Shown piece by piece: positions 1,685 through 34,197 of a stretch of 34,614 nt of DNA; position 1 is the stretch's first letter, and every line of letters begins with the position of its first letter. The position numbers and the translations under genes are program-made. Source of the stretch: a virus. The DNA is taken from the IMG/VR virus record IMGVR_UViG_3300042691_032841, positions 1-34,614 of that record. The stretch is one strand, 5' to 3'. The notes below the pieces were generated by a model. The model ran no database searches. It was not told the DNA's origin and saw only the letters and a list, made by a program, of their open reading frames with translations.

Positions 1685-3052
1685 ATGAAAGATTTTAACA
1701 TTGCAAAGTATTTAAAAGAAAACAATCTTGGTCCACACGCTATCCTTGGTGCATACGTAGATTTGCATGGTTTGAAAGAAGAAACTCAATTAAATGAAGC
1801 TTCATTAGAACTTGATTGGGATTATGGACTAAAATATCTAAAAGCTCAGTGTAAAAAACACAATTTAAATTTTAAGGTAATAGAAGAAAACCTTGCAGAA
1901 GGCCTTTATGTAAAAATTTCAGGCAAAAAAAATGATATAATTGAATTTTTAAAAGATGGATACGTTCAAGATGAAGAGGATTTAGAATTTTATTCAGATA
2001 GTCTTAAAGAACAGCCAGAAATGGAATTGGATACAGAAATTCCGTATGAAGGTCCAGAACATAAGCTGGATGGCTTTGGTGATGAATTTGTGCAAGACAG
2101 TCCTGTAGAAGAAAAAGCAGGTAAAGATGATAGAGATAGCTTAATGACAAAACTATTTGCTATTCAAAAAAGATTTGGATGGAAAAAGGTAAGTCAGGAT
2201 ACAGAACCATTTCAAAATATAAGAATAAGCAATGGGATGAAAAGAGTTCGTAATAACTACGTTGAAGATGGTAGTATTACTGTTGATATTGATAGTACAG
2301 TAAGTAGAGCTGCTTTTACTGAGATCAAAAATTTACTACAAACAAAATTTCCTGATTGGAAAATAGATCCTAGCAGTGTTAAAAAAGATTACGATCCTGA
2401 TACTGATTCTAAGAACGTATTATTCTTTGATATAGTAAAAAATAAATCTGTTAAAGAAGATAGTCCTGTAGAAGAAATAGACAGTATGGATTATGATGAT
2501 TCTGTAAATCCATTTCCTTCATTAATGCCAGATGAGCAAGGTAAGTTTGATCGCATGATGGGACTTATTGATCAAAATATTGAACCACGTCTTGGCCAAA
2601 TAAAATCTATTATTGATGGTTCTAGGGAACAAGGATATGCAGATAGAACAATATTTACCGTTCTTGCAAGACATCCGCTTGTTAGAAATAGTATAGAAGC
2701 CCTTGTTGATGATGGTTTTGAGTTTCAAGATATCATTGATTTCTTTGCTACTGACTTTTCTCAAAATGAAGAAATTGCAGGATACAAAGCAGGTGTTCAA
2801 ATGGAAGGCGCAGAAGAATATATTGTTGATTTCGGTACTAATACAATGACTTATACATTAGATAGAGCTAATAGTGTTCTTAGAGGATTAAAACCTGGAA
2901 TTGTTCCTGGTGCTGATCGTGAAGAAGACATCATACCTGTTACAATAAGCCCTGAAGGATATTTATCAACTACTGATAGAAGTGTTAAAGATATATCTCC
3001 TAAATCTAATAAAAATCCTTTTTCTGATCCTAGTTACAGAAATATAGACTAA
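1685..3052 (+). CDS. Acidic multidomain protein, putative capsid-packaged protein (455 aa)
   Basis: Begins MKDFNIAKYLKENNLG, an N-terminal motif shared with the 116-aa protein at 33847 (FNLKKYLVENNL). Two (L/I)-x-E sites follow, LKE at 30-32 and LNE at 36-38 before Ala, as expected for a T4-type prohead-protease site. The body looks modular: a small alpha/beta domain (about 40-110), an acidic linker with DSPVEE, a second domain (about 150-255), another acidic linker repeating DSPVEE (about 258-290), a helical domain (about 285-370) and a C-terminal beta-rich part. The repeated linker suggests a beads-on-a-string protein. It has its own candidate late promoter. Packaging inside the head is inferred from the N-terminus only; the enzymatic role, if any, is unknown. 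Confidence 0.7.
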   Translation: MKDFNIAKYLKENNLGPHAILGAYVDLHGLKEETQLNEASLELDWDYGLKYLKAQCKKHNLNFKVIEENLAEGLYVKISGKKNDIIEFLKDGYVQDEEDLEFYSDSLKEQPEMELDTEIPYEGPEHKLDGFGDEFVQDSPVEEKAGKDDRDSLMTKLFAIQKRFGWKKVSQDTEPFQNIRISNGMKRVRNNYVEDGSITVDIDSTVSRAAFTEIKNLLQTKFPDWKIDPSSVKKDYDPDTDSKNVLFFDIVKNKSVKEDSPVEEIDSMDYDDSVNPFPSLMPDEQGKFDRMMGLIDQNIEPRLGQIKSIIDGSREQGYADRTIFTVLARHPLVRNSIEALVDDGFEFQDIIDFFATDFSQNEEIAGYKAGVQMEGAEEYIVDFGTNTMTYTLDRANSVLRGLKPGIVPGADREEDIIPVTISPEGYLSTTDRSVKDISPKSNKNPFSDPSYRNID

Positions 3053-3065
3053 TTAAAAAAATAAT

Positions 3066-3305
3066 ATGGCATTCAACTTTAAGCAATTTACAGCAAACAA
3101 TCCTCTTCTAAAAGAAATTAGTTCAAGAGAATTTGATTATATGGACAATGATCAGTTGGATGCCGCAGGTCTTACAGGAGATAGGATTGGCCCAGATGAA
3201 GATAATATAGGATATCCTAGAGTTGAATTTGAACAAGCTGTTATCAAAGCTTTAAAAGCAAATATAGATAAAGATACCTTACATAAGATAATTGATTGGA
3301 ATTAA
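3066..3305 (+). CDS. Small acidic protein with a packaging-type N-terminus (79 aa)
   Basis: Starts MAFNFKQFTANNPLLKE, a variant of the FN-x-x-K-Y-L-x-x-NN N-terminus of its upstream neighbour, with an L-K-E site at 15-17. The rest is an acidic domain with DNDQLDAAGLTGDRIGPDED and a C-terminal helix ending in Trp-Asn. It follows the 455-aa gene by 13 nt and ends 21 nt before a terminator, so it is the last gene of the left plus-strand operon. It may be a second, short capsid-packaged protein. Confidence 0.65.
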   Translation: MAFNFKQFTANNPLLKEISSREFDYMDNDQLDAAGLTGDRIGPDEDNIGYPRVEFEQAVIKALKANIDKDTLHKIIDWN

Positions 3306-3326: not shown

Positions 3327-3355
3327 AGCCCTCGGCAAGTGCCAGGGCTTTTTTT
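3327..3355 (+). terminator. Intrinsic terminator closing the left plus-strand operon
   Basis: A hairpin with AGCCCT (3327-3332) pairing AGGGCT (3344-3349), an inner GGC/GCC pair set (3334-3336 with 3341-3343), a bulged C and an AAGT loop, followed by a run of seven T ending at 3355. The T-run is on the plus side only, so it terminates transcription arriving from 3305. The last T residues also form part of the stop codon of the convergent minus-strand gene. Confidence 0.85.
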
Positions 3356-3809
3356 ATTCTACATCCTTTCTATAGAACCTACCTTGGATATTATCGTTAT
3401 ATGAATCGATATGAAGAACTTTATAGTGCATTTGCCACCAAACTTCATAATAAGTTAATTGTTTCTTAGAGTAACACAATTGTAAAATCTCTCTAGCAAA
3501 CATATCATCACCTACTTCTTTTCTTTCTTGATTAAGTAGTTTATTACTTCCATGGTATGACAACCAATCAGACTCTTTAATAATCTTCTTCTTGCGTGGG
3601 ACGCGCCCAGGTTTGTCCCATTCCGCGATCTCTTTCTTGGTTAATGCTTTATTAGTATTATTGAAAAGGACCTTTCTGCCTATATAGAATTTGCCATTGA
3701 TAAGATTGACAATCTTATATATAAAGCCAACAGTATTAGGTGGAAAGTCTTCTATTGAATTAAACTCTCTAGTAACTCCTAGAGGATCAAAATATAACCA
3801 TTTTCTCAT
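3354..3809 (-). CDS. GIY-YIG family endonuclease (151 aa)
   Basis: The catalytic GIY-YIG signature is clear: GFIYKIVN (about 28-35) and GKFYIGRK (about 39-46), where the two Tyr and the following Arg are the expected active-site elements, then SDWLSYHGSNKLL (about 82-94) and FAREILQLC (about 104-112), which supply the downstream conserved positions of this T4-type subfamily. The C-terminus (GRFYRKD) also fits T4-like members. Such proteins are free-standing DNA endonucleases, often homing-like, and one is common in T4-like phages. It is the last gene of the minus-strand block, just past a duplicated tail-fibre module, a placement that would suit a role in spreading that region. Confidence 0.85.
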   Translation of the reverse strand: MRKWLYFDPLGVTREFNSIEDFPPNTVGFIYKIVNLINGKFYIGRKVLFNNTNKALTKKEIAEWDKPGRVPRKKKIIKESDWLSYHGSNKLLNQERKEVGDDMFAREILQLCYSKKQLTYYEVWWQMHYKVLHIDSYNDNIQGRFYRKDVE

Positions 3810-24767: not shown

Positions 24768-25553
24768 ATGATTAAGCTACTAGACTTATTATTAGAAGTA
24801 AAAGGGGGCAAAAAAGCTATTATAATGGCAGGTGGAGCCGGAGCCGGCAAATCCACTTTTGTTAAACAGATTAGATCTGACTTAAAAAATCAAGGCTGGA
24901 TTGAGCTGAATGCAGACAAGTATGTAGAAGACAAAGATAGTCCTATGTACAATAATCTAGCTAAAGCCTCTATTCAAATTGATAAAAGAGACCTTCCTGA
25001 TACTATACAATCCGGAAATAATTTTTTATATGATACAACTGGAACTAATATAGAAAGAATAACTAATATTAAAGATTCTGGTTATAATATTATGATGGTG
25101 ATGGTGTATACTAACCCTATAGTTAGTTTCCTTCGTAACTTTTCTAGAGAAAGAAAGGTTCCTACTGTTGGAGTATTATCTAGCTGGAATAATGTATATA
25201 AGAACATTGATACGTACAAAAAAATGTTCGGAGATAATTTTTATCTAGTAGAGACAGGAATGTCAAATGATGAACAAAAGATGGTAGCTGAATTTCAAAA
25301 GGCTTATAAATCTAATAAATTAAAAGAATTTTTTGAGCAGCTTTTATCTTCTGGACAATTTAAGTCTACATTTAAAAAAGATCCTACTAAACAAAAATCT
25401 CCTGAAGAAATAGCAAAATCTAAAGCACTTGTTGATAAGCAAATAGACATACTGTCTGATCAGTTTGATACTATAGAAAAACAAGTAGAAGAGTTAAAAG
25501 CTCAAGATATGTCAAGTGTTGCGTCTAAAGTAAAATCATTTATTAAGTCATGA
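24768..25553 (+). CDS. P-loop (zeta/PNK-like) kinase with capsid-targeting-type N-terminus (261 aa)
   Basis: Starts MIKLLDLLLEVKGGKK, the packaging-type peptide with L-L-E at 8-10. A P-loop kinase follows: Walker A GGAGAGKST (22-30), an Asp in LNADKY (about 47-52), YDTTGTN (88-94), and an Arg-rich lid RNFSRERKVPTVGV (about 123-136). The order resembles zeta-toxin and polynucleotide/nucleoside-kinase-type enzymes that phosphorylate a sugar, nucleotide or nucleic-acid end. The ~85-residue C-terminus is a Lys/Glu-rich helix (KQIDILSDQFDTIEKQ). Overlaps the nucleotidyltransferase by ATGA. If packaged, this kinase would be delivered with the DNA. The substrate is unknown. Confidence 0.8.
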   Translation: MIKLLDLLLEVKGGKKAIIMAGGAGAGKSTFVKQIRSDLKNQGWIELNADKYVEDKDSPMYNNLAKASIQIDKRDLPDTIQSGNNFLYDTTGTNIERITNIKDSGYNIMMVMVYTNPIVSFLRNFSRERKVPTVGVLSSWNNVYKNIDTYKKMFGDNFYLVETGMSNDEQKMVAEFQKAYKSNKLKEFFEQLLSSGQFKSTFKKDPTKQKSPEEIAKSKALVDKQIDILSDQFDTIEKQVEELKAQDMSSVASKVKSFIKS

Positions 25554-26140
25554 TTAACTTCGAACAACTAGGAAGACAGATAGCAGAGGATATATTAAAA
25601 GAAGCATCGCCAGATGTAGGCCCTTGTTTTTACCCTGGTAAATTCAAACCTCCTCATAAAGGACATTTTGAAGCCGCAAAATATTTAGCGTCTCTAAATT
25701 ATATTAACAAAGTATATGTTGTTATATCTAATGTTACTAAGTACGGTATAACTCCTGAAGATTCTCTTTATATCTGGCAAGAATATCTTAAAGCAGAACC
25801 CAATCCTAAAATAGAGGTAACAATATCTAAAGAGTCCACACCAATAAAAGACATCTTTGCTTTTATGGCAGAAAACCCTGATGTTGACCCAGTCTATGTT
25901 GCGTCAGGAGAAGAAGAACAAACAGAATTAGGATACTTTGATTCTATACAAAAAAGATTTCCTAATAAAGTAAGACCTGAAATTATACCGGCACAATTTG
26001 GTAGAATATCTGCAACTCAAATGAGAGCCACAATTAAAGCTGGTAACTTTGAAGAATTTGCTAAATTTATTCCAGACTCGGCATATAATAAAGGAGTGGC
26101 TAAAGATGTTTTTGGAAGATTATTGAAAATAATGAAATGA
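25550..26140 (+). CDS. NMNAT/cytidylyltransferase-like nucleotidyltransferase with packaging-type N-terminus (196 aa)
   Basis: Residues 25-45 contain YPGKFKPPHKGHFEAAKYLA, the (H/T)xGH nucleotide-binding motif (HKGH, 36-39) of the nucleotidyltransferase alpha/beta-phosphodiesterase superfamily. ISATQMRATI (153-162) is the ISxTxxR motif that binds the triphosphate. This pair is typical of NadM/NadR/RibL-like enzymes that form dinucleotides such as NAD. The N-terminus (MINFEQLGRQIAEDILKEAS) ends in L-K-E before Ala-Ser, as a prohead-protease site would. It is coupled by 4-nt overlaps to the kinase upstream and the peptidase-HAD fusion downstream. NMN as substrate is plausible, not shown. Confidence 0.8.
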   Translation: MINFEQLGRQIAEDILKEASPDVGPCFYPGKFKPPHKGHFEAAKYLASLNYINKVYVVISNVTKYGITPEDSLYIWQEYLKAEPNPKIEVTISKESTPIKDIFAFMAENPDVDPVYVASGEEEQTELGYFDSIQKRFPNKVRPEIIPAQFGRISATQMRATIKAGNFEEFAKFIPDSAYNKGVAKDVFGRLLKIMK

Positions 26141-27030
26141 TACCAGAAAAAAGACAAGAAATAATAGAGGATTTTATACAGTTTGCAAAAAATAAACTTT
26201 ATATAAATCAGCTTCCTACAATTAGGTTTTTAAATGATCGTGAATGGGCAACAGAAAGAAGAAGTTTTGGTGAGTATAATCCAAACGAAAACCATTTAGA
26301 TGTTTATATAGGAAATAGAAACTTAGCAGATATACTAAGAACTCTATGTCATGAATTAGTTCACCATAGACAAAATGAGCTTGGTAAATTATATAATAGT
26401 GCTGGTAAGACAGGATCTAATATAGAGAATGAAGCTAATGCTTTAGCAGGTATAATGATGAGAGACTATGGTAAAACTAATGATCTTATTTATGAATCTT
26501 TTCTTCCTACTCTTAAACAAATTTATGAAGTAGAACAATCCGGAGGTATTCAGATTTATTGTGATATGGATGGAGTATTGTGTGATTTTGATGAAAGATT
26601 TGAACATTTTTATGAGATGACTCCAATTCAATATAGAGAGAAATATGGACCAACCCCTTTTAAAAATGCTGTAGATCAAGCCGGCATTGACTTTTGGGCT
26701 AAAATGAAATGGATGCCAGGAGGTCAAGAACTATGGTCAATTATAGGTAAGTATAATCCATACATCCTAACTAGTCCTAGTAAATTTAATCATGCTGTAG
26801 AAGGTAAAAAGTTATGGATAAAGTCAAATCTTGATCCTCAACCAAAAGGAATAATATTTGGACAGACAGGGCAAAAACATTTAGAAATGAAAACAGATCC
26901 TAAAAGATCTATCCTAATAGATGACTATTGGCCAAACCTAGCTCCTTGGAAAGATTTAGAAGGTATAGCAATAATGCACAAAGATATTAATAAGACAAAA
27001 AATATATTAAGTAAATTCAGAATAAAATAG
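26137..27030 (+). CDS. Fusion of zinc metallopeptidase-like and HAD phosphatase domains (297 aa)
   Basis: Residues 1-120: a zincin-like domain with LCHELVHHRQNELG (HELVHH at 72-77) and a possible third ligand in NIENEANALAG (about 95-105). Residues 138-297: a HAD hydrolase like 5'(3')-deoxyribonucleotidases, with the nucleophile motif IYCDMDGVLCDFD (D143, D145), ILTSPSK (motif II Thr/Ser), and ILIDDYWPN (motif IV D262-D263). The short linker FLPTLKQIYEVEQSGG (122-137) resembles the MIKLIDILKEVEQ start of the 181-aa protein at 28711 and includes I-Y-E. It thus looks like an internal packaging/cleavage peptide. The gene overlaps its upstream neighbour by ATGA. The domain calls are good; physiological substrates are unknown. 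Confidence 0.8.
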   Translation: MIPEKRQEIIEDFIQFAKNKLYINQLPTIRFLNDREWATERRSFGEYNPNENHLDVYIGNRNLADILRTLCHELVHHRQNELGKLYNSAGKTGSNIENEANALAGIMMRDYGKTNDLIYESFLPTLKQIYEVEQSGGIQIYCDMDGVLCDFDERFEHFYEMTPIQYREKYGPTPFKNAVDQAGIDFWAKMKWMPGGQELWSIIGKYNPYILTSPSKFNHAVEGKKLWIKSNLDPQPKGIIFGQTGQKHLEMKTDPKRSILIDDYWPNLAPWKDLEGIAIMHKDINKTKNILSKFRIK

Positions 27031-27032
27031 TT

Positions 27033-27611
27033 ATGTTACCAAAAGATTCTACGCTAAAAAAACAATTTAAACAAAGAGATGTTCAAAGGATGAGAAATAT
27101 TATTACTGGTAAAACTGGTGATAGAACTCAAGTGCTTGGAGGTTGGGAAAGTAAAATAGAAGAACATAAAGAAGGTGATATTTGGGAAGAAGATGGAAAA
27201 AAGTGGACTATAAAGAATGGCATCAAACAGTCTATAACCAAGCTAGATAAATTCAAACATCTTGTATCTCTACCTCTTACTTGTCCTAGTTGTAAGAAGC
27301 CTATGAAGGCTGATGAATTAAATAAAAAGATGTACTCGGTACATAAAGTGTGTTTGAACTGTGTTATTGATATGGAAGCTAAACTAAAGCTAGAAGGTAA
27401 ATATAAGCAGTATGAAAAAAATATTCTTAATATGAATAAGAATGCTAGTCTTGAAGAGTTTGAAATGGCTTTGGATTCATGGCTTGAGGAAAAAGATACC
27501 TTCGTAACTGAGCAAGGGGATATTGAAAGTTGGCAAGGCGGAGATAAGACTCAGATATATCAAGAACTCAAAAAGAAGATAGAAGAGTTTAGGAAAACAG
27601 ATATTTATTAG
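27033..27611 (+). CDS. Zinc-ribbon protein of unknown function (192 aa)
   Basis: Contains a four-Cys zinc ribbon: C-P-S-C in LTCPSCKKPM (about 93-102) and C-L-N-C in HKVCLNCVID (about 113-122). N-terminal basic helix (STLKKQFKQRDVQRMRNI) and an EGDIWEEDGKKWTIKNG beta region precede it, and acidic helices follow. The EGDIW-x-E-x-G-K-x-W pattern recurs in T4-like marine phage proteins, but I know no function. Unlike most neighbours it lacks the M-x-K-L-x-D-I-L start. It lies 2 nt after the peptidase-HAD gene. A nucleic-acid or protein-binding role is likely. Confidence 0.65.
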   Translation: MLPKDSTLKKQFKQRDVQRMRNIITGKTGDRTQVLGGWESKIEEHKEGDIWEEDGKKWTIKNGIKQSITKLDKFKHLVSLPLTCPSCKKPMKADELNKKMYSVHKVCLNCVIDMEAKLKLEGKYKQYEKNILNMNKNASLEEFEMALDSWLEEKDTFVTEQGDIESWQGGDKTQIYQELKKKIEEFRKTDIY

Positions 27612-27613
27612 TA
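27601..27613 (+). promoter_or_regulatory. Candidate late promoter (ATATTTATTAGTA)
   Basis: An exact copy of the 13-nt element at 1658-1670. It overlaps the last codons and stop of the zinc-ribbon gene and lies 20 nt before the next ATG. Confidence 0.45.
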
Positions 27614-27633
27614 AATTCTAAAAGAATATTGTA

Positions 27634-28710
27634 ATGCATAATATATCAGAAAAAGCTGCATCTAAACAACAACAGAAATTAATGGGTATAGTTCACGCCC
27701 TTCAAAAAGGAGATATGAAACCTTCACAAGCATCAGGAAAAGCAAAAGAAATGGCTAAATCAATGAAAAAAGGAGATGTAAAAGATTTTGCATCAACTAA
27801 ACATAAAGGACTTCCTAAAAAAGTAAAGAAGGAAGACTATGATCCTACCAAGATGTATGTGGTTCTTAAACCAATGGACAATCTAGATGCAGCAGGTTTG
27901 ATTAAAGAATTAAATCCACTAGAAGGCCTTCAGCCTCTTAATATTATGCAAGATGATGTTCATAGTGTAGTAACTGACGAATCAGAAGCACAGAGAATTG
28001 CTGCAGAAGTATATGGAGCATACGTTAAAGAAGTTCAAGCTCTTGAAGAAAAGAAAGGAAAGGTAGGTGATAAGTTGAAAAAAACTATTGACCATCTTGA
28101 GAAGAAACGTAAAGAGCATGTTGATATGGCTAAAGAAGATCCTAAAAATGCTTCTCAACATAAAGAACATATTGCTAAACTTGCATCTCAAATCGACGAT
28201 CTTATGAGTAAGATGGAAAAGATTGAGAAGAGCAAGAAAAATGTTGAAAAAGTAGAAGACGAAAAAAGTGATAAAAAAAAAGATAAATTAAAAGAAGAAT
28301 TTAATCCTACTGATAAAGTAATTTTAGACATCCCTCTTTTTATTAGACTTTTAGAATATGCTAGAGAAGATGCCAAATCAGACATGGATCTTCATAATGT
28401 AGCGCAAAAAGCCATTGAATTATCCCAATCAGGTATGTCTCTTTCTATGAAAGATTACGAATCTTTAATAGGAGGGCAAGAGCAATTAGCAGAATCTGAT
28501 AATGTAGTAGATAGTATCCCAGAAATTCAAAGATATCTTAAAGATCTTGTAATTAAAATTCCTACAGTAAAAGGTATAGATACAAATGAGGTTAAAGGAA
28601 TTGTAGAATTAATAAATTCAATACTTGCTAAATTAGGAAAAGGATCAGTTGGACCTGCTATAAATGCAACTAACAAAGTTTTTAATCAAAGAACTCAAGG
28701 ATTAAAATAA
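27634..28710 (+). CDS. Lys-rich multidomain protein with DUF3008-like N-terminus (358 aa)
   Basis: Residues about 8-68 contain AASKQQQKLMGIVHALQKGD, AKEMAKSMKKGDVKDFAST and KHKGLPKK, which from memory match small basic proteins of the DUF3008 type. A short beta domain follows (KMYVVLKPMDNL, about 75-86), then a very charged coiled coil (about 140-225), an L-K-E site in KDKLKEEFNP (about 221-230), and a C-terminal helical domain with IPLFIRLLEYAREDAKSDMD and IELSQSGMSLSMKDYESL. The first part could bind nucleic acid. It has a candidate late promoter, and it is followed with no gap by the 181-aa gene. A DNA-binding virion protein is possible. Confidence 0.65.
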   Translation: MHNISEKAASKQQQKLMGIVHALQKGDMKPSQASGKAKEMAKSMKKGDVKDFASTKHKGLPKKVKKEDYDPTKMYVVLKPMDNLDAAGLIKELNPLEGLQPLNIMQDDVHSVVTDESEAQRIAAEVYGAYVKEVQALEEKKGKVGDKLKKTIDHLEKKRKEHVDMAKEDPKNASQHKEHIAKLASQIDDLMSKMEKIEKSKKNVEKVEDEKSDKKKDKLKEEFNPTDKVILDIPLFIRLLEYAREDAKSDMDLHNVAQKAIELSQSGMSLSMKDYESLIGGQEQLAESDNVVDSIPEIQRYLKDLVIKIPTVKGIDTNEVKGIVELINSILAKLGKGSVGPAINATNKVFNQRTQGLK

Positions 28711-29256
28711 GTGATTAAATTAATAGACATATTAAAAGAAGTTGAGCAAGATCAAATAGATATATCTGCATTAAATAATCTAGATGATGAAATAGAAAAA
28801 GCTTTAGAAACTGCTCCTAAAAATGAAATAATAGGTACTATTTCTATAGTATTAGCTTTACCTGGAATCATAAATGCCATTACAAAAATTATAGAGGCGA
28901 TAGCAAAAAAAGCTGGTATTCAATTAAAAAAATCTGATCCGAAATGGTATCAAGTTATAGGAAAAGTAACTGATAAGATTGATGACTACGTAGATACACC
29001 ATTTAGAATTATGCTAAAACCTTTTATTCAAGATCAAAGTAAAAGAGATAAAGTAGCAAAGATTTTTAAGGCGGTAGTTCTAACTATGATGGCAATTTTT
29101 GGATCGGTAGATGTTAAACAAATTGAATCTACAACATCACTAATTAAAAATTTAGCTCCTGATATATCAAGTGAATTAATACAATCTATTGCAGAAAAAA
29201 ATGCAAGTAAAATTGGTACTATATTAAGAGACGTAATTAAACCATTGTTTGCTTAA
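28711..29256 (+). CDS. Putative packaged protein with membrane-active helices (181 aa, GTG start)
   Basis: Begins at GTG, directly after the preceding stop: the encoded start M-I-K-L-I-D-I-L-K-E (L-K-E at 8-10) matches the other packaging-type N-termini exactly, which fixes this start. The body is helical with a long apolar segment EIIGTISIVLALPGIINAIT (about 39-58) and a second one AVVLTMMAIFGSVD (about 115-128), separated by basic amphipathic stretches. These could insert into a membrane. In a packaged protein this might mean a pore or DNA-entry role after ejection. This is speculative, and no family is recognised. Confidence 0.65.
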   Translation: MIKLIDILKEVEQDQIDISALNNLDDEIEKALETAPKNEIIGTISIVLALPGIINAITKIIEAIAKKAGIQLKKSDPKWYQVIGKVTDKIDDYVDTPFRIMLKPFIQDQSKRDKVAKIFKAVVLTMMAIFGSVDVKQIESTTSLIKNLAPDISSELIQSIAEKNASKIGTILRDVIKPLFA

Positions 29257-29268
29257 AATTTTATAATA

Positions 29269-29598
29269 ATGGATACAATTCAAGAATTAAACGAAGGAGA
29301 ATTTTGCCCTCAATGTTTGGCTCAATATATAAGAGAACACATTAACTCTTTACAAGAAGCGGAGTATCAAGGACGTAAAGTACCTCTAGGAAAACCTATG
29401 AGAGGCGATATTAAGAAGTTTAAAGTATATGTAAAGAATAATAAGGGTAATATTGTTAAGGTTAACTTTGGAGACCCTAACATGAAGATTAAAAAGTCAA
29501 ATCCTAAAAGAAGAAAGAGTTTTAGAGCAAGACACCATTGTGACACTAATCCAGGACCAAGATGGAAAGCAAGATATTGGTCATGCAGAAAATGGTAA
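29269..29598 (+). CDS. Conserved basic Cys-containing phage protein (109 aa)
   Basis: N-terminal MDTIQELNEGEFCPQCLAQY carries a C-x-x-C and is followed by an L-Q-E site before Ala at 28-31 (NSLQEAEYQG). The remainder is a highly characteristic basic domain: KFKVYVKNNKGNIVKVNFGD, then MKIKKSNPKRRKSFRARHHC and KARYWSCRKW. I recognise this as a family widespread in T4-like phages, generally without known function; its Arg/Lys and conserved Cys/His suggest a zinc- or nucleic-acid-binding fold. If cut after E30, the mature part would be this domain alone. Confidence 0.7.
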   Translation: MDTIQELNEGEFCPQCLAQYIREHINSLQEAEYQGRKVPLGKPMRGDIKKFKVYVKNNKGNIVKVNFGDPNMKIKKSNPKRRKSFRARHHCDTNPGPRWKARYWSCRKW

Positions 29599-29601
29599 AC
29601 T

Positions 29602-29841
29602 ATGATTAAACTTAAAGATATATTAAACGAAGCAGCAAAACCAGGTCCAATAGAGTATCCAAAAGACCATAAACCAGGTATGAAAGTTACTAAGGGTGGT
29701 TCAATGTGTGCTAATTGTGAATACTGGATTAAAGAAGGTAATATATGCAATAATCAATATTGGCTTAAGTGGAGAAAAGGCAATGCCAAAATACCTGCCA
29801 ATGCTGATGAGTATTGCTGTAATTGGTGGCATGCAAACTAA
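29602..29841 (+). CDS. Cys-rich small protein with packaging-type N-terminus (79 aa)
   Basis: Starts MIKLKDILNEAAKPGPIEYP, with L-N-E at 8-10 before Ala-Ala, an ideal T4-type cleavage site. The mature part would be a ~69-residue domain with GSMCANCEYW (C-x2-C, about 34-43), a third Cys in GNICNNQYW and a C-C pair in ADEYCCNWW: five cysteines. The spacing suggests a zinc or iron-sulphur site; the pattern faintly recalls high-potential iron-sulphur proteins, but this is not proven. Gene spacing is 3 nt from the basic protein before it. Confidence 0.65.
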   Translation: MIKLKDILNEAAKPGPIEYPKDHKPGMKVTKGGSMCANCEYWIKEGNICNNQYWLKWRKGNAKIPANADEYCCNWWHAN

Positions 29842-29842
29842 G

Positions 29843-29856
29843 ATATTTATACTTAT
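29843..29856 (+). promoter_or_regulatory. Candidate late promoter (ATATTTATACTTAT)
   Basis: ATATTTATACTTAT fills the 15-nt gap between the Cys-rich gene and the 105-aa gene and touches the ATG. The ATATTTATA core agrees with the motif; the AGTA part is changed to CTTA. Confidence 0.35.
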
Positions 29857-30174
29857 ATGACAAAGCTTCTAGATATTTTAAAGGAAATTAAAGAGTCTTT
29901 CATAGACTTTGCAGAGACTAGAATGAAGGGAGCTGAGAAGATTGCAAATAACGCAAAGGAAAAAGGAGGTCTTTCTATGCTTACTTATAATCACTTTGTA
30001 GTTAAACTTCCTTATTATAAGAAGGCTAAACAAGGTGAATTTAATATAGAAGAGGCTAAGAAAGAATATAATAGGACATATAAGGAGATATCCCTGAATA
30101 TGACCCAAACAGAGTTTCAGAGAGAGGTTGGTAGACTAGAAGTATTAGGTGAACTAATAATTAGAAATAAATGA
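29857..30174 (+). CDS. Small helical protein with packaging-type N-terminus (105 aa)
   Basis: Starts MTKLLDILKEIKESF with L-K-E at 8-10. The body is helical with KEKGGLSMLTYNHFVVKLPY (about 44-63) as the only hydrophobic part and then KEYNRTYKEISLNMTQTEFQ. It overlaps the next gene by ATGA. The domain has no recognised function; small proteins with the L-P-Y-Y centre occur in related phages. Packaging in the head is inferred from the N-terminus. Confidence 0.6.
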   Translation: MTKLLDILKEIKESFIDFAETRMKGAEKIANNAKEKGGLSMLTYNHFVVKLPYYKKAKQGEFNIEEAKKEYNRTYKEISLNMTQTEFQREVGRLEVLGELIIRNK

Positions 30175-30704
30175 TTAAGCTTAAAGATATATTATTAGAA
30201 ATGGCCAAAACAGATATTCACTATCAGAATATCTTACAGTCTTTTAATAATGGAGATGCAGAAATTAGAGATCGAATATCTAGAGCGGTATCAAAAACCC
30301 CCTACACTTTAGAAAAAGATTTAGAATATCTAGGATATGATGATATTACCGATATAGAAAAAGAATTAGATTTAAATCCTCTTGAAGAAGCTTGTTGGAA
30401 AGGATATAGAAAAGATCCAAAAAATCCAATGAAAAAAGGAAAAAAAGGGAATATGGTTCCTAATTGTGTTAGAGTAAGTGAAGCAAAAAAGAAAGGAAAA
30501 GTTAATCCTGCGTATCTTACTAAAGATGCTGCAGCAATGAAGAAAGAGATTGATAGAGTTAAAAAGTTAAAGTCTGATGATCCTTCTGCTTATGGAAAGT
30601 GGGAAGCTGATTATGCTGATAAGGCTAAAACTAAGAAATATAAGACTAAGAAGAGTGCGGCAACTTCTGCTTACGAAAAAAGATTTGGTAAAAAAGAAAA
30701 ATAA
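30171..30704 (+). CDS. Modular basic protein with packaging-type N-terminus (177 aa)
   Basis: Starts MIKLKDILLEMAK (L-L-E at 8-10). After a helical part comes LNPLEEACWKGYRKDPKNPM, KKGKKGNMVPNCVRVSEAKK (about 79-118): a Cys-framed module, A-C-W-K-G-Y ... V-P-N-C-V, that I associate with many T4-like marine phage proteins, flanked by L-E-E before Ala and by V-S-E before Ala. The C-terminal domain (AYGKWEADYADKAK, KKSAATSAYEKRFGKK) is a basic helical unit also common in such phages. Several units in one short protein, separated by possible cleavage sites, suggest a small polyprotein. The Lys-rich parts could bind packaged DNA. Confidence 0.65.
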   Translation: MIKLKDILLEMAKTDIHYQNILQSFNNGDAEIRDRISRAVSKTPYTLEKDLEYLGYDDITDIEKELDLNPLEEACWKGYRKDPKNPMKKGKKGNMVPNCVRVSEAKKKGKVNPAYLTKDAAAMKKEIDRVKKLKSDDPSAYGKWEADYADKAKTKKYKTKKSAATSAYEKRFGKKEK

Positions 30705-30979
30705 TGAAGCTACAAGAACTATTACAACAATTAGTTGAAGAAAGACTTAAGTTTCACCACTCAAATGCACCAGATGCAAAAGGTAGATTTAAAGAATTGC
30801 CAGCAGAAAAGTTAGCTAATTGGTTGATTAGAACAAGAAAAGGTAATATGAGTAAAATAACAGGCTCATTAAATCAACAAGCTAATTTTAATCGTAAAGA
30901 TGATCCTGCTTACGCAAGGAAGATGGATAGGACTAGAGAGATAGTTAAAAAGAAACTAGATAAAAAGAAAAAGAAATGA
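30704..30979 (+). CDS. Small very basic protein with packaging-type N-terminus (91 aa)
   Basis: Starts MKLQELLQQLVEERLK: a short variant of the tag with L-V-E at 10-12. It then has FHHSNAPDAKGRFKELPAEK and GNMSKITGSLNQQANFNRKD, ending in a run of Lys (KKLDKKKKK). The Arg/Lys content and small size fit a DNA-binding internal protein. Its start shares a base with the previous stop, and its end overlaps the next gene by ATGA. Function unknown. Confidence 0.65.
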   Translation: MKLQELLQQLVEERLKFHHSNAPDAKGRFKELPAEKLANWLIRTRKGNMSKITGSLNQQANFNRKDDPAYARKMDRTREIVKKKLDKKKKK

Positions 30980-31263
30980 TTAATAAATTAGATATATTAA
31001 AGAAAATACTTATTCTTGAGTATGATGCTGAAGTAGAAAAAGCCTTAGCAAATAAAGCAAAGTCTACCGGTATATCTAAAACTATACTCAAAAGTGTATA
31101 TGCTAAAGGTTTAGCAGCTTGGAAAACAGGTCACCGTCCTGGAGTTGGTCAACACCAATGGGCAATGGGAAGAGTGAATTCATTTGTAACAGGTAAAGGT
31201 GGAGCAAGAAAAGCAGATAAGAGTTTATGGAAAAAGGCAAGTAAATCTAAAAAGAAAAAATAA
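30976..31263 (+). CDS. Small basic protein with W-K-T-G-H-R-P-G motif and packaging-type N-terminus (95 aa)
   Basis: Starts MINKLDILKKILILEYDAEV, with I-L-E at 13-15. The conserved core is helical: KAKSTGISKTILKSVYAKGL, then AAWKTGHRPGVGQHQWAMGR (about 52-71) and VNSFVTGKGGARKADKSLWK. The A-W-K-T-G-H-R-P-G ... Q-W-x-x-x-R-V-x-S-F signature is one I have seen in marine T4-like phages and some large eukaryotic viruses, without known function. It ends in poly-Lys. If cut at E15, the mature protein is exactly this conserved unit. Confidence 0.68.
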   Translation: MINKLDILKKILILEYDAEVEKALANKAKSTGISKTILKSVYAKGLAAWKTGHRPGVGQHQWAMGRVNSFVTGKGGARKADKSLWKKASKSKKKK

Positions 31264-31264
31264 A

Positions 31265-31915
31265 ATGAATAGTATTTCATTCTTCAAAGCTCTTTTGATG
31301 AAAGAGTTAAACGAAAAAGACGGAGCAGAATTTACAAAAAAGTATAATGATAATCCTAAATTGAAAGGAGGACAAAAAAATCTGCCTGATCAATTACAAG
31401 CTCAAATTGTAAAAAACGAAGGCGAAGATCATGAAGTATCAATGGCGCAAAATAGCCTTAAGTCTATTATAAGTTCAGCAAGCCAATTGATGAATATGTT
31501 AGGTCAAGATGAGAAAGATATCCCAGCTTGGATTCAAGATCATATTACTAATGCAGAGAACTATATTAATCAGGCTTCAAAGAACTATCATGAATATCAT
31601 AATGGTGGAGATAATATGGACGAACTTCCTGTAGGTAATGAAGAAGAGCCTGTAGATGATATGGCACTACAGTCTATGATGGAAGCAGAATTTATTAGCC
31701 TTAAAGATTTTTCTAAAAACTTAGAACTTCACAAAAAAGGAGATATTACTAAATCTCAACTTATTACCTCTTATAATAAGTTAAGTGCAAAAAATCAAGA
31801 TAAAGCTAAAGAACTTGCTAAAGATCTAGATGTATTGCCTAAACCAAAAAAGACTAACGAAACTTCTCTTCAAAGTATAATGGAAAGTGTTGTCAAGCGT
31901 AAAAAAGCAAAATAA
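31265..31915 (+). CDS. Acidic helical protein with packaging-type N-terminus (216 aa)
   Basis: The start is put at 31265 (MNSISFFKALLMKELNEKDG), one base after the preceding stop; an upstream ATG at 31199 would lie inside the preceding gene. L-N-E occurs at 15-17. The middle has EDHEVSMAQNSLKSIISSAS, IPAWIQDHITNAENYINQAS: a helical module (E-V-x-M-A-Q ... P-x-W-x-Q ... I-T-x-A-x-x-Y-I) that I associate with many T4-like marine phage proteins. Two later peptides, ALQSMMEAEF (about 136-145) and SLQSIMESVV near the end, look like duplicated cleavage-type sites (M-M-E, I-M-E), with a helical unit between them. Modular head-packaged protein inferred. Confidence 0.65.
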   Translation: MNSISFFKALLMKELNEKDGAEFTKKYNDNPKLKGGQKNLPDQLQAQIVKNEGEDHEVSMAQNSLKSIISSASQLMNMLGQDEKDIPAWIQDHITNAENYINQASKNYHEYHNGGDNMDELPVGNEEEPVDDMALQSMMEAEFISLKDFSKNLELHKKGDITKSQLITSYNKLSAKNQDKAKELAKDLDVLPKPKKTNETSLQSIMESVVKRKKAK

Positions 31916-31918
31916 TAA

Positions 31919-33520
31919 ATGCCAGTGAGTAACCAAGACATATTAAAAACAATACTCTTACAAGAGTTAGATAGGATGGAACCTGAACAATCAACGTTTG
32001 AGGATGATCCTATGCAGTTCATATTAAAGAAGTATGTAGGACTTAAGAATACTCTTGAGTATCTTATGACTCCTTCATTTGAAGAATATATTACTGGCAT
32101 ATATGTAGTGGCTCCTAAGCCTACAACATTTAAAATTGTTTTACATAATGGACAATTCTTTTTCTTGCAGTTCATGGGTAAAGCCTATGAAGCAACTGTA
32201 GAAGGAAAGAAATACTATTTAATGTCTATTGGTGAGAAAGAAAGGTGCATGGTTGCTATATCAAGACTCCTTAGATTTGGTAACCCATTAAAGACAAAAG
32301 GGCCGGATGGAGCAGAGCAAGGTACTAGAGATTCAGAAGGACCTGCAGAAGAAGCAGGACCAACTCCACCAGCAGAAACATCAGCACCAGAAGCAGAAGG
32401 TGGAGAAGAGTTGACAGAATCTAGGATATTAGAGACAATATTATTAGAACAATCTAAACCAAGTCCTAAAATAAATCAACAAGCATCTGATAAACTAATA
32501 AATCTTAATCCTAATAAGTTTGAAAAACAATCTGATCCATATAGAATAGCAAATAAAGAAAAAGTAAGTGTTGATGAGTTTGTTAAGATAATTAAAAAAG
32601 ATCTTAAAGCTAAAAACATTAAAGTTCACCCTCCTAAATCTGGACCTAATACAAGTAGTAAATTTAGTATGGTAGAATTTGATTCTGAATTTGGACCTGT
32701 TAAATTTATTTTAAGTGGTGGTGCAACTGCTAATTTAGGTAGTAAATTTGAAAAAGATTTAGTAGATAAAATTAAATCATCAGCAGGATTAAATAAAAAT
32801 GAAATACAAGATCCTATAGCTTTAAAAATATTAGACTTTTTAAATATTAATCCAAAACAATTAAAACCTGAAAACGTAATTGCAGCAGGAGAAACTGATA
32901 CAAAAAGACCATTAAATTTTAAAGGTCCACAAAATAGAGGAGAAAAAATATCTGATATAATTATTAATTATAAAAATAAACCTTATTATTTATCTATAAA
33001 AAATGTATCAGGATCTGGGATTTATAATGGTGGAGTTATTCCTGGTATAGTTTTTAATAAGGATAAAAATAAAATAGTTTTTGATAAAGCTGCTTTTGAT
33101 TCAAATGAAAATATTAAAAAAATTTTAGAAATATTTGGCGTTGATCCTAAAAAAATAGTAGCTGGATTAAATAATTATGTTTCCCAAAAAGGACCAGAAA
33201 CAAAATTTGAACAAAGTAATGGTAATATAGAATTAATAAGTAAGCTATTAGGATCAGCTATAGACTATGGATATTATTATATAAGGGAAATACCTGGAGG
33301 AGATGTTAAAATCTATAATATAGACTCTCCTAAAAAGGCAATGCAACTTTTAGGAAATCCTAGTGGAGTTTTTGTAAAATATGCAAATCCATCTACAAAA
33401 ATAACTACTATTAGAGTTCCACTAGAAGGTTCATTACTAGGACTAAAAAGAGCAGATGTTAGTATAAGAAATGCCACTGGAGGAATAGATAAGCCTGTCA
33501 TAAAAATTAATTTATTCTAA
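31919..33520 (+). CDS. Two-module protein with two packaging-type peptides; C-terminal part PD-(D/E)XK-like (533 aa)
   Basis: Residues 5-16 (NQDILKTILLQE) are a packaging-type tag. An alpha/beta domain follows (about 25-125), then a Pro/Ala/Glu linker (about 128-165). A second copy of the tag, RILETILLEQ, sits at 169-178, where an L-L-E cut would release the second module. The last ~350 residues resemble a nuclease-like fold: E278 in GSKFEKDLVDKI, D346 in EKISDIIINYKN and S359-I-K361 in YYLSIKN, the E ... D ... x-x-K order of PD-(D/E)XK enzymes, with Ser in the usual E/Q position. Nuclease identity is tentative. The architecture strongly suggests two packaged proteins joined in one gene. Confidence 0.72.
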   Translation: MPVSNQDILKTILLQELDRMEPEQSTFEDDPMQFILKKYVGLKNTLEYLMTPSFEEYITGIYVVAPKPTTFKIVLHNGQFFFLQFMGKAYEATVEGKKYYLMSIGEKERCMVAISRLLRFGNPLKTKGPDGAEQGTRDSEGPAEEAGPTPPAETSAPEAEGGEELTESRILETILLEQSKPSPKINQQASDKLINLNPNKFEKQSDPYRIANKEKVSVDEFVKIIKKDLKAKNIKVHPPKSGPNTSSKFSMVEFDSEFGPVKFILSGGATANLGSKFEKDLVDKIKSSAGLNKNEIQDPIALKILDFLNINPKQLKPENVIAAGETDTKRPLNFKGPQNRGEKISDIIINYKNKPYYLSIKNVSGSGIYNGGVIPGIVFNKDKNKIVFDKAAFDSNENIKKILEIFGVDPKKIVAGLNNYVSQKGPETKFEQSNGNIELISKLLGSAIDYGYYYIREIPGGDVKIYNIDSPKKAMQLLGNPSGVFVKYANPSTKITTIRVPLEGSLLGLKRADVSIRNATGGIDKPVIKINLF

Positions 33521-33526
33521 AATAAA

Positions 33527-33558
33527 TTTTTTTATTTCAATTATTTTTTGTATATTAG
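33527..33558 (+). promoter_or_regulatory. Host-type promoter before the 81-aa gene
   Basis: Seven T then ATTTCAA, ending TTTTTTGTATATTAG (box 33551-33558). It shares 28 of 32 positions with the minus-strand copy at 22949-22980, including the 24-nt distance from T-run to box. The ATG follows 15 nt after the box, leaving room for a short A/T-rich leader. Confidence 0.6.
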
Positions 33559-33573
33559 CCATAAATTAATTAC

Positions 33574-33819
33574 ATGGCAAAAAAAGATACAATCTATAGA
33601 ACAATAAAGACTATAGAAGGAACAACAATCCACATTTACGAAGACGAAAAAGGGGCTACAAAACCCCATTGTGCCACTGGCCCTGCTATACTTTATGGAA
33701 AAGGACAAAACAAACAAGATGAATACTATTTGTTTGGAGTAAAGTATGATTATGATAGGTGGCTAGAATTATCTAGACCTTTAAGGAAAGCTACTACTAA
33801 AGAAGATTTTGTTGATTGA
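33574..33819 (+). CDS. Small conserved phage protein with G-P-A repeat-like motif (81 aa)
   Basis: Contains HCATGPAILYGKGQNKQDEY and YLFGVKYDYDRWLE (about 32-66), a pattern of H-x-x-x-GPA followed by a Y-Y-x-x-G strand that is widespread in small phage proteins and recalls MORN/YwqK-type antitoxin repeats. Only about one and a half units are present. It has its own host-type promoter, unlike its late neighbours, so it may be made early. Function unknown. Confidence 0.6.
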   Translation: MAKKDTIYRTIKTIEGTTIHIYEDEKGATKPHCATGPAILYGKGQNKQDEYYLFGVKYDYDRWLELSRPLRKATTKEDFVD

Positions 33820-33822
33820 TAA

Positions 33823-33835
33823 ATATTTATAAGTA
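33823..33835 (+). promoter_or_regulatory. Candidate late promoter (ATATTTATAAGTA)
   Basis: ATATTTATAAGTA lies 11 nt before the ATG of the 116-aa gene, in the 27-nt gap after the 81-aa gene. It contains the complete motif. Confidence 0.45.
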
Positions 33836-33846
33836 AATGTACGACT

Positions 33847-34197
33847 ATGTCATTTAACTTAAAAAAATATTTAGTAGAAAATAATCTTACTTTAATCTCT
33901 AGGATTAGAGAAGAGGAAGATACGGAAGTAGAGCCTTCAAAAGATGATCTTAAACAATCTGAAAAAGACTTTAGATCAATAGATAAAAAGAAAAAGGAAT
34001 TAGCAAATCTTCAACAGCAAGTAAAAACAATTCTTGCAAAATATACAGAAAGAGGAGCCGACGGTAATCTTAAACTTAAAGATGTAGCTGGATATAAGAA
34101 TGCTGTTGGAAATATTCCTGATAGAATTAAACTCCTCAAAGCTCAGATAGATAAAGTAGAAAATCCTAAATTAGATTCAGATGAAGAAGACGATTAG
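33847..34197 (+). CDS. Coiled-coil protein with FNxxKYLxENNL-type N-terminus (116 aa)
   Basis: Starts MSFNLKKYLVENNLTLISRI, nearly the same as the 455-aa protein's start (FNIAKYLKENNL) 32 kb away; L-V-E at 9-11 and I-R-E at 20-22 are possible cleavage sites. The rest is an acidic/basic coiled coil (DKKKKELANLQQQVKTILAK, then GNIPDRIKLLKAQIDKVENP) with a short insertion. It has its own candidate late promoter. Probably a head-internal or scaffold-type protein; function unknown. Confidence 0.62.
   Translation: MSFNLKKYLVENNLTLISRIREEEDTEVEPSKDDLKQSEKDFRSIDKKKKELANLQQQVKTILAKYTERGADGNLKLKDVAGYKNAVGNIPDRIKLLKAQIDKVENPKLDSDEEDD

Follow-up and report, generated by a model that had tools for sequence, protein, structure and literature searches.

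The gene and its surroundings

The stretch of viral DNA analysed here, called the window, comprises 34,614 nt (positions 1-34,614 of IMG/VR record IMGVR_UViG_3300042691_032841), and the data suggest that its source is an uncultured T4-like phage from water. An open reading frame with an ATG start (31919-33520, plus strand), which closes a cluster of plus-strand genes, encodes a protein of 533 aa (P0001). The relevant features are as follows.

24768..34197, plus strand: gene cluster around the ORF, with [I/L]xE tags at the N-termini (shuffle test)
26137..27030, plus strand: fusion of peptidase and HAD with a tag in front of the HAD part, which phage immuto encodes as a tagged gene of its own (relatives)
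31919..33520, plus strand: whole gene, 533 aa, with tag 1, N-domain, linker, tag 2 and nuclease-like C-domain (ORF and AlphaFold2 model)
31919..31966, plus strand: tag 1, residues 1-16, ending LLQE (L-x-E), a putative capsid-targeting propeptide (cluster motif count; motif rule from an excerpt of PMC9026906)
32009..32275, plus strand: constant N-domain, residues about 31-119, elsewhere fused to other C-domains or a gene of its own (relatives, AlphaFold2 model)
32279..32410, plus strand: Pro/Ala/Glu/Gly-rich disordered linker, residues about 121-164 (sequence, AlphaFold2 model)
32411..32452, plus strand: tag 2, residues 165-178 (LTESRILETILLEQ), candidate site for the prohead protease and border of exchange (relatives, DNA comparison)
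32434..32449, no strand: 5' border of the exchanged cassette, where DNA homology ends in 6 of 7 relatives with other C-domains (L042: 32380) (DNA comparison)
32465..33517, plus strand: C-domain, residues 183-533, well folded in the model; its core (271-533) resembles MspI (VIA Z 6.8) (AlphaFold2 model, alignment A2)
33507..33539, no strand: 3' border of the exchanged cassette, with homology back at the stop codon (33518-33520) in 7 of 7 (DNA comparison)

Both motifs reported in the initial annotation are present in the reading frame: DILKTILLQE (residues 7-16) lies within tag 1 and RILETILLEQ (residues 169-178) within tag 2. In the AlphaFold2 model a short N-terminal helix bears tag 1, the linker region (residues 121-175) has pLDDT <50, and the helix of tag 2 is predicted with low confidence. 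The same annotation had placed tag 2 behind a Pro/Ala/Glu-rich linker and directly before the C-terminal domain, which agrees with the model. P0001 has no Pfam domain above the cut-off and no usable family in Pfam, NCBIfam or PADLOC; its sole match in PHROGs is phrog_8438, a family of unknown function. Weak matches of the N-domain to a frataxin-like fold (VIA Z 6.3) were set aside.

Exchange of the C-terminal domain

Relatives were collected in a first scan (54 loci) and in later, overlapping scans (27, 62, 26 and the best 80 of 445). At least 167 distinct ORFs carry the N- or the C-domain. Among the matches listed, 107 ORFs have the N-domain; 47 of them carry a known C-family (C4 21, C2 11, C3 10 and C1, the window type, 5) and 60 do not. 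At least 250 aa follow the N-domain in 63 of these 107, and 43 end within 80 aa. The unassigned C-termini among these matches form six further BLAST clusters, three of which are single sequences. The cores of C1 and C2 are homologous (hhalign 98.4), and hhalign detected no relation of C3 or C4 to C1/C2 or to each other. Taking the known families and the six clusters together, the slot therefore holds about ten families, or fewer if remote links exist. At one locus, L072, the gene is a truncated copy of that in L012. In a genome contig scan, two MAG contigs (Pelagibacter and Flavobacteriaceae) matched the N-domain.

That tag 2 separates two modules, as the initial annotation had proposed, was borne out at the DNA level. 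Ten loci were compared with the window, seven relatives with C2, C3 or C4 and three with C1. Six of the former are 85-92% identical to the window on either side of the cassette and unalignable between; for L042 the flanks are 83% and 70% identical. The three C1 relatives align straight through the cassette or from the start of their own contig. The DNA coding for the N-domain is up to 97.8% identical between carriers of different C-families. On a tree of this DNA (60 rows, 273 columns) the C-family changes at least 31 times, compared with 31-41 times (mean 37.4) in 300 shuffles; the C-family is therefore distributed close to randomly on this tree, whose resolution is low (25 of its 57 inner branches are open). 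Judged by these comparisons, tag 2 is a conserved domain border, and it is well supported that the C-domain is swapped in place, like a cassette, between related viruses.

A constant N-terminal part with an exchangeable, enzyme-like C-terminal domain is the arrangement of polymorphic toxins. A cognate immunity gene was not found behind the cassette, and such a gene in the DNA after it is ruled out, since in all seven relatives compared, regardless of their C-family, DNA homology is back from the stop codon onwards. The genes L053 and L024 share a subdomain (LTxxPxYxTKxGxNPYY) between different nuclease cores; the cassettes themselves are mosaic.

Tags at gene starts and at the module junction

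The initial annotation had called the two motifs clear copies. With 6/10 identities (BLOSUM62 score 28) they form the best 10-mer self-match within the protein, but shuffling the protein gave an equal self-match in 54 of 100 cases, and in 13 of 300 with the first copy fixed to the N-terminus. Self-alignment, not above chance by itself, was discarded as proof of a tag duplication. What stands of the claim is that the motifs are non-random in the context of the cluster and of the relatives.

An [I/L]xE motif with E at residue 5-20 occurs in 16 of 18 plus-strand cluster genes (shuffle mean 3.2), a number reached by none of 2000 shuffles. This set omits the plus-strand ORFs 46, 403, 973, 1363, 23033 and 23959; with these included, 19 of all 24 plus-strand ORFs have the tag (shuffle mean 4.1, 19 reached in 0/2000). 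Among the minus-strand genes the motif was found in 6/21 (shuffle mean 3.4), and 186 of 2000 shuffles reach 6. In the tag count, the start of ORF 31199 was shifted to an internal ATG. Throughout, identical ORFs were collapsed. The window protein itself begins with a stretch of the propeptide kind (~10-20 residues with an L/I-x-E end), MPVSNQDILKTILLQE, with E at residue 16. Genes at window positions 1685-3305 and 33847-34197, and genes in immuto, begin with a tag of a second style, F(N/D)L(K/R)K(Y/F)LxEN.

At the junction between tag and C-domain, E is found in all 40 distinct junction strings of the fused relatives, the window's own included (C1 5, C2 9, C3 9, C4 17). Only ORFs matched from the beginning of the domain profile were used, and each distinct string was counted once; the 66 rows comprise 40 fused and 26 stand-alone cases, and L006, listed among the latter, is a truncated fused contig. 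Two residues before the last E of tag 2 (P3), I or L was read by eye in 21/40, V in 8/40 and R or T in 11/40, so that 21 junctions fit the strict [I/L]xE form and 29 fit it when V is allowed. LTE or ILE a few residues upstream of this E may be an alternative site. A scripted count of [ILV]xE at tag 2 gave 5/5 for C1, 9/9 for C2, 5/9 for C3 and 17/17 for C4; it exceeds the count by eye for C1 and C2 because the upstream ILE was also accepted. Of the fused relatives that were read, none has lost the second motif while keeping both domains, a case that would speak against the annotation.

The shuffles of the protein fit the idea that the likeness of the tags is a meaningless chance match of two amphipathic helices. 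The cluster-wide enrichment, the E kept at every junction and the exchange border at the tag contradict this idea, which we consider extremely improbable. Because of the enrichment and the conservation of tag 2 in the relatives, the tags are real despite the chance-level self-match. Taken together, the architecture, the conservation of the tag and the exchange are very likely.

Resemblance of the C-terminal domains to nucleases

A D...SxK or D...ELK stretch was recognised by eye in all slot families; such a stretch is a signature of PD-(D/E)XK nucleases. In alignment A2 (window type), E116, D184, S197 and K199, equivalent to E278, D346, S359 and K361 of the window protein, are invariant in 8/8, and in alignment A7 E11, D93, S102 and K104 are invariant in 21/21. 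These are putative catalytic residues, and both alignments have the conserved acidic residues and lysine of a PD-(D/E)XK enzyme. The model of C4 (pLDDT 83.5) aligned to MspI (Z 9.2 over 186 aa), HinP1I (9.1 and 8.7) and HhaI (7.2), with the next unrelated chain at 3.6. For the C1 model of the window protein (271-533), MspI gave the VIA Z of 6.8 over 176 aa, and Hjc and I-Ssp6803I aligned over the same stretch with 5.2-5.6. C7 matches the PADLOC model REase_II for type II restriction enzymes (2.8e-9). A sequence search of the PDB returned weak, unrelated rows only for A7 and none for L213. Against a nuclease count the Z of only 6.8 for C1, which falls in the range of common arrangements, and the Foldseek search of the PDB, which gave nothing at E<=0.001 for the C1 or the C4 model. 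From the models, the C-domain is likely nuclease-like.

The slot proteins resemble the type II restriction endonucleases MspI, HinP1I and HhaI in the predicted fold of C4, more weakly in that of C1, and in the D...SxK core. They differ from these enzymes in being encoded by phages behind a head-type tag. No methyltransferase was recognised by eye beside the gene in the window. Beyond what the initial annotation had proposed, the sequences point to a nuclease-like slot in which the C-module is swapped among the roughly ten families. Elsewhere in the window, beside tail genes, a GIY-YIG endonuclease-like sequence was seen by eye (3354-3809).

The C-domain might be a mobile, homing-like nuclease that invaded the reading frame and spreads by cutting alleles without it. 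The sharp edges of exchange at tag and stop codon, the near-random distribution of C-families on the N-domain tree and the alignment of the C1 model to the homing enzyme I-Ssp6803I (Z 5.6) would fit such an element. The alleles, however, mostly carry another nuclease rather than nothing, a whole gene is exchanged in the cyanophage S-RIM44, and stand-alone copies with leaders occur. We regard this origin as quite unlikely, although homing-like spread and carriage in the capsid could both apply at once.

Separate genes, leaders and fusions

In L010, L012 and L038 the N-domain and a C-domain of the window type (50% identity) are encoded by adjacent genes. The stand-alone C-genes of this group have a leader with the core KGYPD that ends with LxE directly before the domain. 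By eye, a leader ending in LxE was found in 23 distinct C-only ORFs among the matches listed (17 C1, 3 C2, 1 C3 and 2 C4). The expectation of the initial annotation that separate homologues of the C-domain begin with the same tag was thus partly realised: such genes exist and their leaders end in LxE, but the leader is mostly of the KGYPD type. Gene 192 of immuto also has a KGYPD-type leader, and the end of gene 191 is formed by the N-domain. A C4 domain also occurs with short T4-like tags (FLTE|A in L126, FLSE|A in Melnitz, NLSE|A in HTVC008M).

The N-domain genes of the KGYPD group have no clear LxE tag of their own. Among the 43 N-only genes in the matches listed, examined by eye, a KGYPD-leader gene follows within 600 nt in 24, and in 9 the terminase comes next, corresponding to an empty slot. 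Leaders of about 45 aa with the KGYPD core stand before four nuclease families (L010, L038, L080, L083, L086-L099, L127, L129, L180, L255, L258, L261).

The likeness to the peptidase-HAD gene, also drawn in the initial annotation, holds. The HAD half encoded in the window is 40% identical to a separate gene of Flavobacterium phage immuto with an N-terminal LxE tag (leader ...LADLLLE|E). Conversely, a 907-aa protein of immuto unites the cytidylyltransferase and the peptidase half that are separate in the window. Two separate tagged genes of the window (25550-26140 and 30976-31263) match the two ends of phrog_3041. These arrangements, with fusion and fission at tags, support the polyproteins suggested in the initial annotation as a general pattern. 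The phrog_3041 counterparts in Melnitz and HTVC008M look like parts of one protein.

Head genes, protease and virion proteins

The window ends before the head genes, so that no prohead protease was seen in it. A gp21-type protease (PF03420) was found above the cut-off in 13 of 20 related contigs, the other seven being short or partial records. Downstream of the homologue in L069 lie, in this order, three small genes, terminase, portal, three genes, the protease, two genes and the major capsid protein; the names were given by eye, with reference to the sequences and to the gene order of the annotated record of immuto. By eye, probable maturation sites of the major capsid protein are VVE|S in L069, VSE|A in immuto and LTE|A in cyanophages. 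According to excerpts of PMC9026906, the cleavage site of T4 gp21 lies behind L/I-x-E, and IPIII needs its first ten residues for incorporation into the head. We liken the tag to a gp21 site because it fits the L/I-x-E rule and the phages' own capsid maturation sites. The suggestion of cargo polyproteins matured by the prohead protease, made in the initial annotation, gains from the protease in these relatives and from fusion and fission at the tags, but the missing clear tag on the N-genes of the KGYPD group does not fit it.

By sequence, cyanophages and pelagiphages have a similar slot. In Kyanoviridae it lies between a primase-helicase/mazG stretch and a cytidylyltransferase stretch. It holds C1/C2-like genes in S-RIM32, S-RIM44 Np and SynMITS9220M01, a gene like the L053 type in S-RIM44 W2 and S-CREM1, and a C3-like gene in S-RIM2; a similar slot holds C4 in HTVC008M and Melnitz. 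The S-RIM44 isolates L262 and L263 are 99.3% identical before the slot gene, 90.4% after it and unalignable within it, a whole-gene exchange of alleles at the nuclease slot within one species. Cyanophage slot genes have no long leader, and some have none.

In S-SZBM1 the slot protein is SSZBM1_142, which has a D...FSVK motif (by eye); the virion protein S-SZBM1_139 was ruled out as the slot gene by the gene map. Table 1 of PMC9146016 lists 30 virion proteins; among them are the tagged cytidylyltransferase _140 and, encoded near it, _139 and _136, and SSZBM1_142 is absent. Table 3 of PMC10665884, in an excerpt, gives the tagged cytidylyltransferase and its neighbours 155, 156 and 160 for the S-CREM2 virion, and an excerpt of PMC9964418 gives 14 proteins for the S-CREM1 virion. 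No slot-like gene was recognised beside the cytidylyltransferase of S-CREM2 in the stretch examined.

The absence of SSZBM1_142 from that list, the cyanophage slot genes without a leader and the low confidence of the predicted tag 2 helix would all suit a two-domain enzyme that acts unpackaged inside the infected cell and degrades host or rival DNA, the tag being a helical hinge for recombination. Such an enzyme leaves unexplained the E kept at 40/40 junctions, the LxE-ending leaders of the stand-alone copies and the T4-like tags on the C4 copies of HTVC008M and Melnitz. We judge it unlikely, but not negligible.

A candidate capsid cargo

The account that we find rather probable is a two-module capsid-cargo pro-protein in which the head protease cleaves at tag 2 and which delivers an exchangeable nuclease. 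Tag 1 would act like the capsid-targeting sequence of T4, and the N-domain would be the constant, head-associated part. Tag 2 would be a gp21-type prohead-protease site, at which a cut frees the C-domain during head maturation. Once freed, this domain would be a PD-(D/E)XK nuclease similar to MspI and HinP1I; delivered together with the genome, it would attack DNA of the host, of plasmids or of rival phages inside the cell. One nuclease would be replaced by another through recombination in the segment from tag 2 to the stop codon, as in polymorphic toxins but with no matching immunity gene. An exchangeable nuclease behind a protease-like tag suggests that the shell carries interchangeable nucleases into the host. 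Cleavage, packaging, injection, target and function are what we infer; cleavage at tag 2 and packaging seem plausible, and host or rival DNA is the favoured target.

For capsid cargo we counted the tag enrichment, the match to capsid sites, the gp21-type protease, the in-place exchange, the LxE leaders, the folds and the tagged cytidylyltransferases in virions. Against it stand SSZBM1_142, not among the 30 S-SZBM1 virion proteins, R or T at P3 in 11/40 junctions, the N-genes of the KGYPD group without a clear tag and the cyanophage slot genes without a long leader.

The internal proteins IPI-III and Alt of T4, as described in excerpts of PMC3012670 and PMC9026906, are similar in their short N-terminal L/I-x-E tag, in a gp21-type protease in the genome (here in relatives) and in fast-diverging cargo behind a conserved tag. 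Alt is also cleaved near its C-terminus at LTE (PMC5694885, excerpt). In contrast to these, the window protein has a second tag in mid-protein between two folded modules. Its putative cargo would be nuclease-like, not a restriction inhibitor or ADP-ribosyltransferase.

MuF proteins are associated with phage heads, and no MuF domain was found in P0001 (no MuF match in Pfam up to E=1). The MuF polymorphic toxins of temperate phages (PMC5576092) share the constant N-terminal part and the exchangeable C-terminal enzyme domain. The window type, in contrast, is found in T4-type phages, its modules are parted by a putative protease tag, and no variable immunity gene follows the cassette. Polyvalent proteins (PMC5512222, excerpt) are likewise multi-domain and thought to be packaged and injected, and some (DarA and DdrB of P1) are proteolytically processed. 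The window protein differs from them in having two modules only, a site matching the prohead protease and one module exchanged in place.

More tentatively, and with somewhat less than even confidence, we propose a polymorphic nuclease slot common to T4-like phages that infect Flavobacteriia, cyanobacteria, SAR11 and methylotrophs. It would encode a head-packaged pro-protein or gene pair with a nuclease that the head protease releases and that passes freely between phages, giving virions interchangeable, restriction-enzyme-like weapons against DNA of host or competitor. The wider cargo region would be made up of polyproteins dividing and joining at protease tags. No description of exchangeable nucleases behind a prohead-protease tag was found in the open-licence PMC literature searched. 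If the proposal is true, the presence of an [I/L]xE tag, whether initial or internal to a gene, would be a readable rule for head cargo among the unknowns of marine T4-like phages, and a delivered, exchangeable nuclease would bear on host takeover and phage-phage competition.

Near their C-terminus, most of the C4 genes L126, L139, L145, L149, L152 and L153 have a second, LTE|G-like site before an amphipathic helical tail. This tail is possibly a third released piece.
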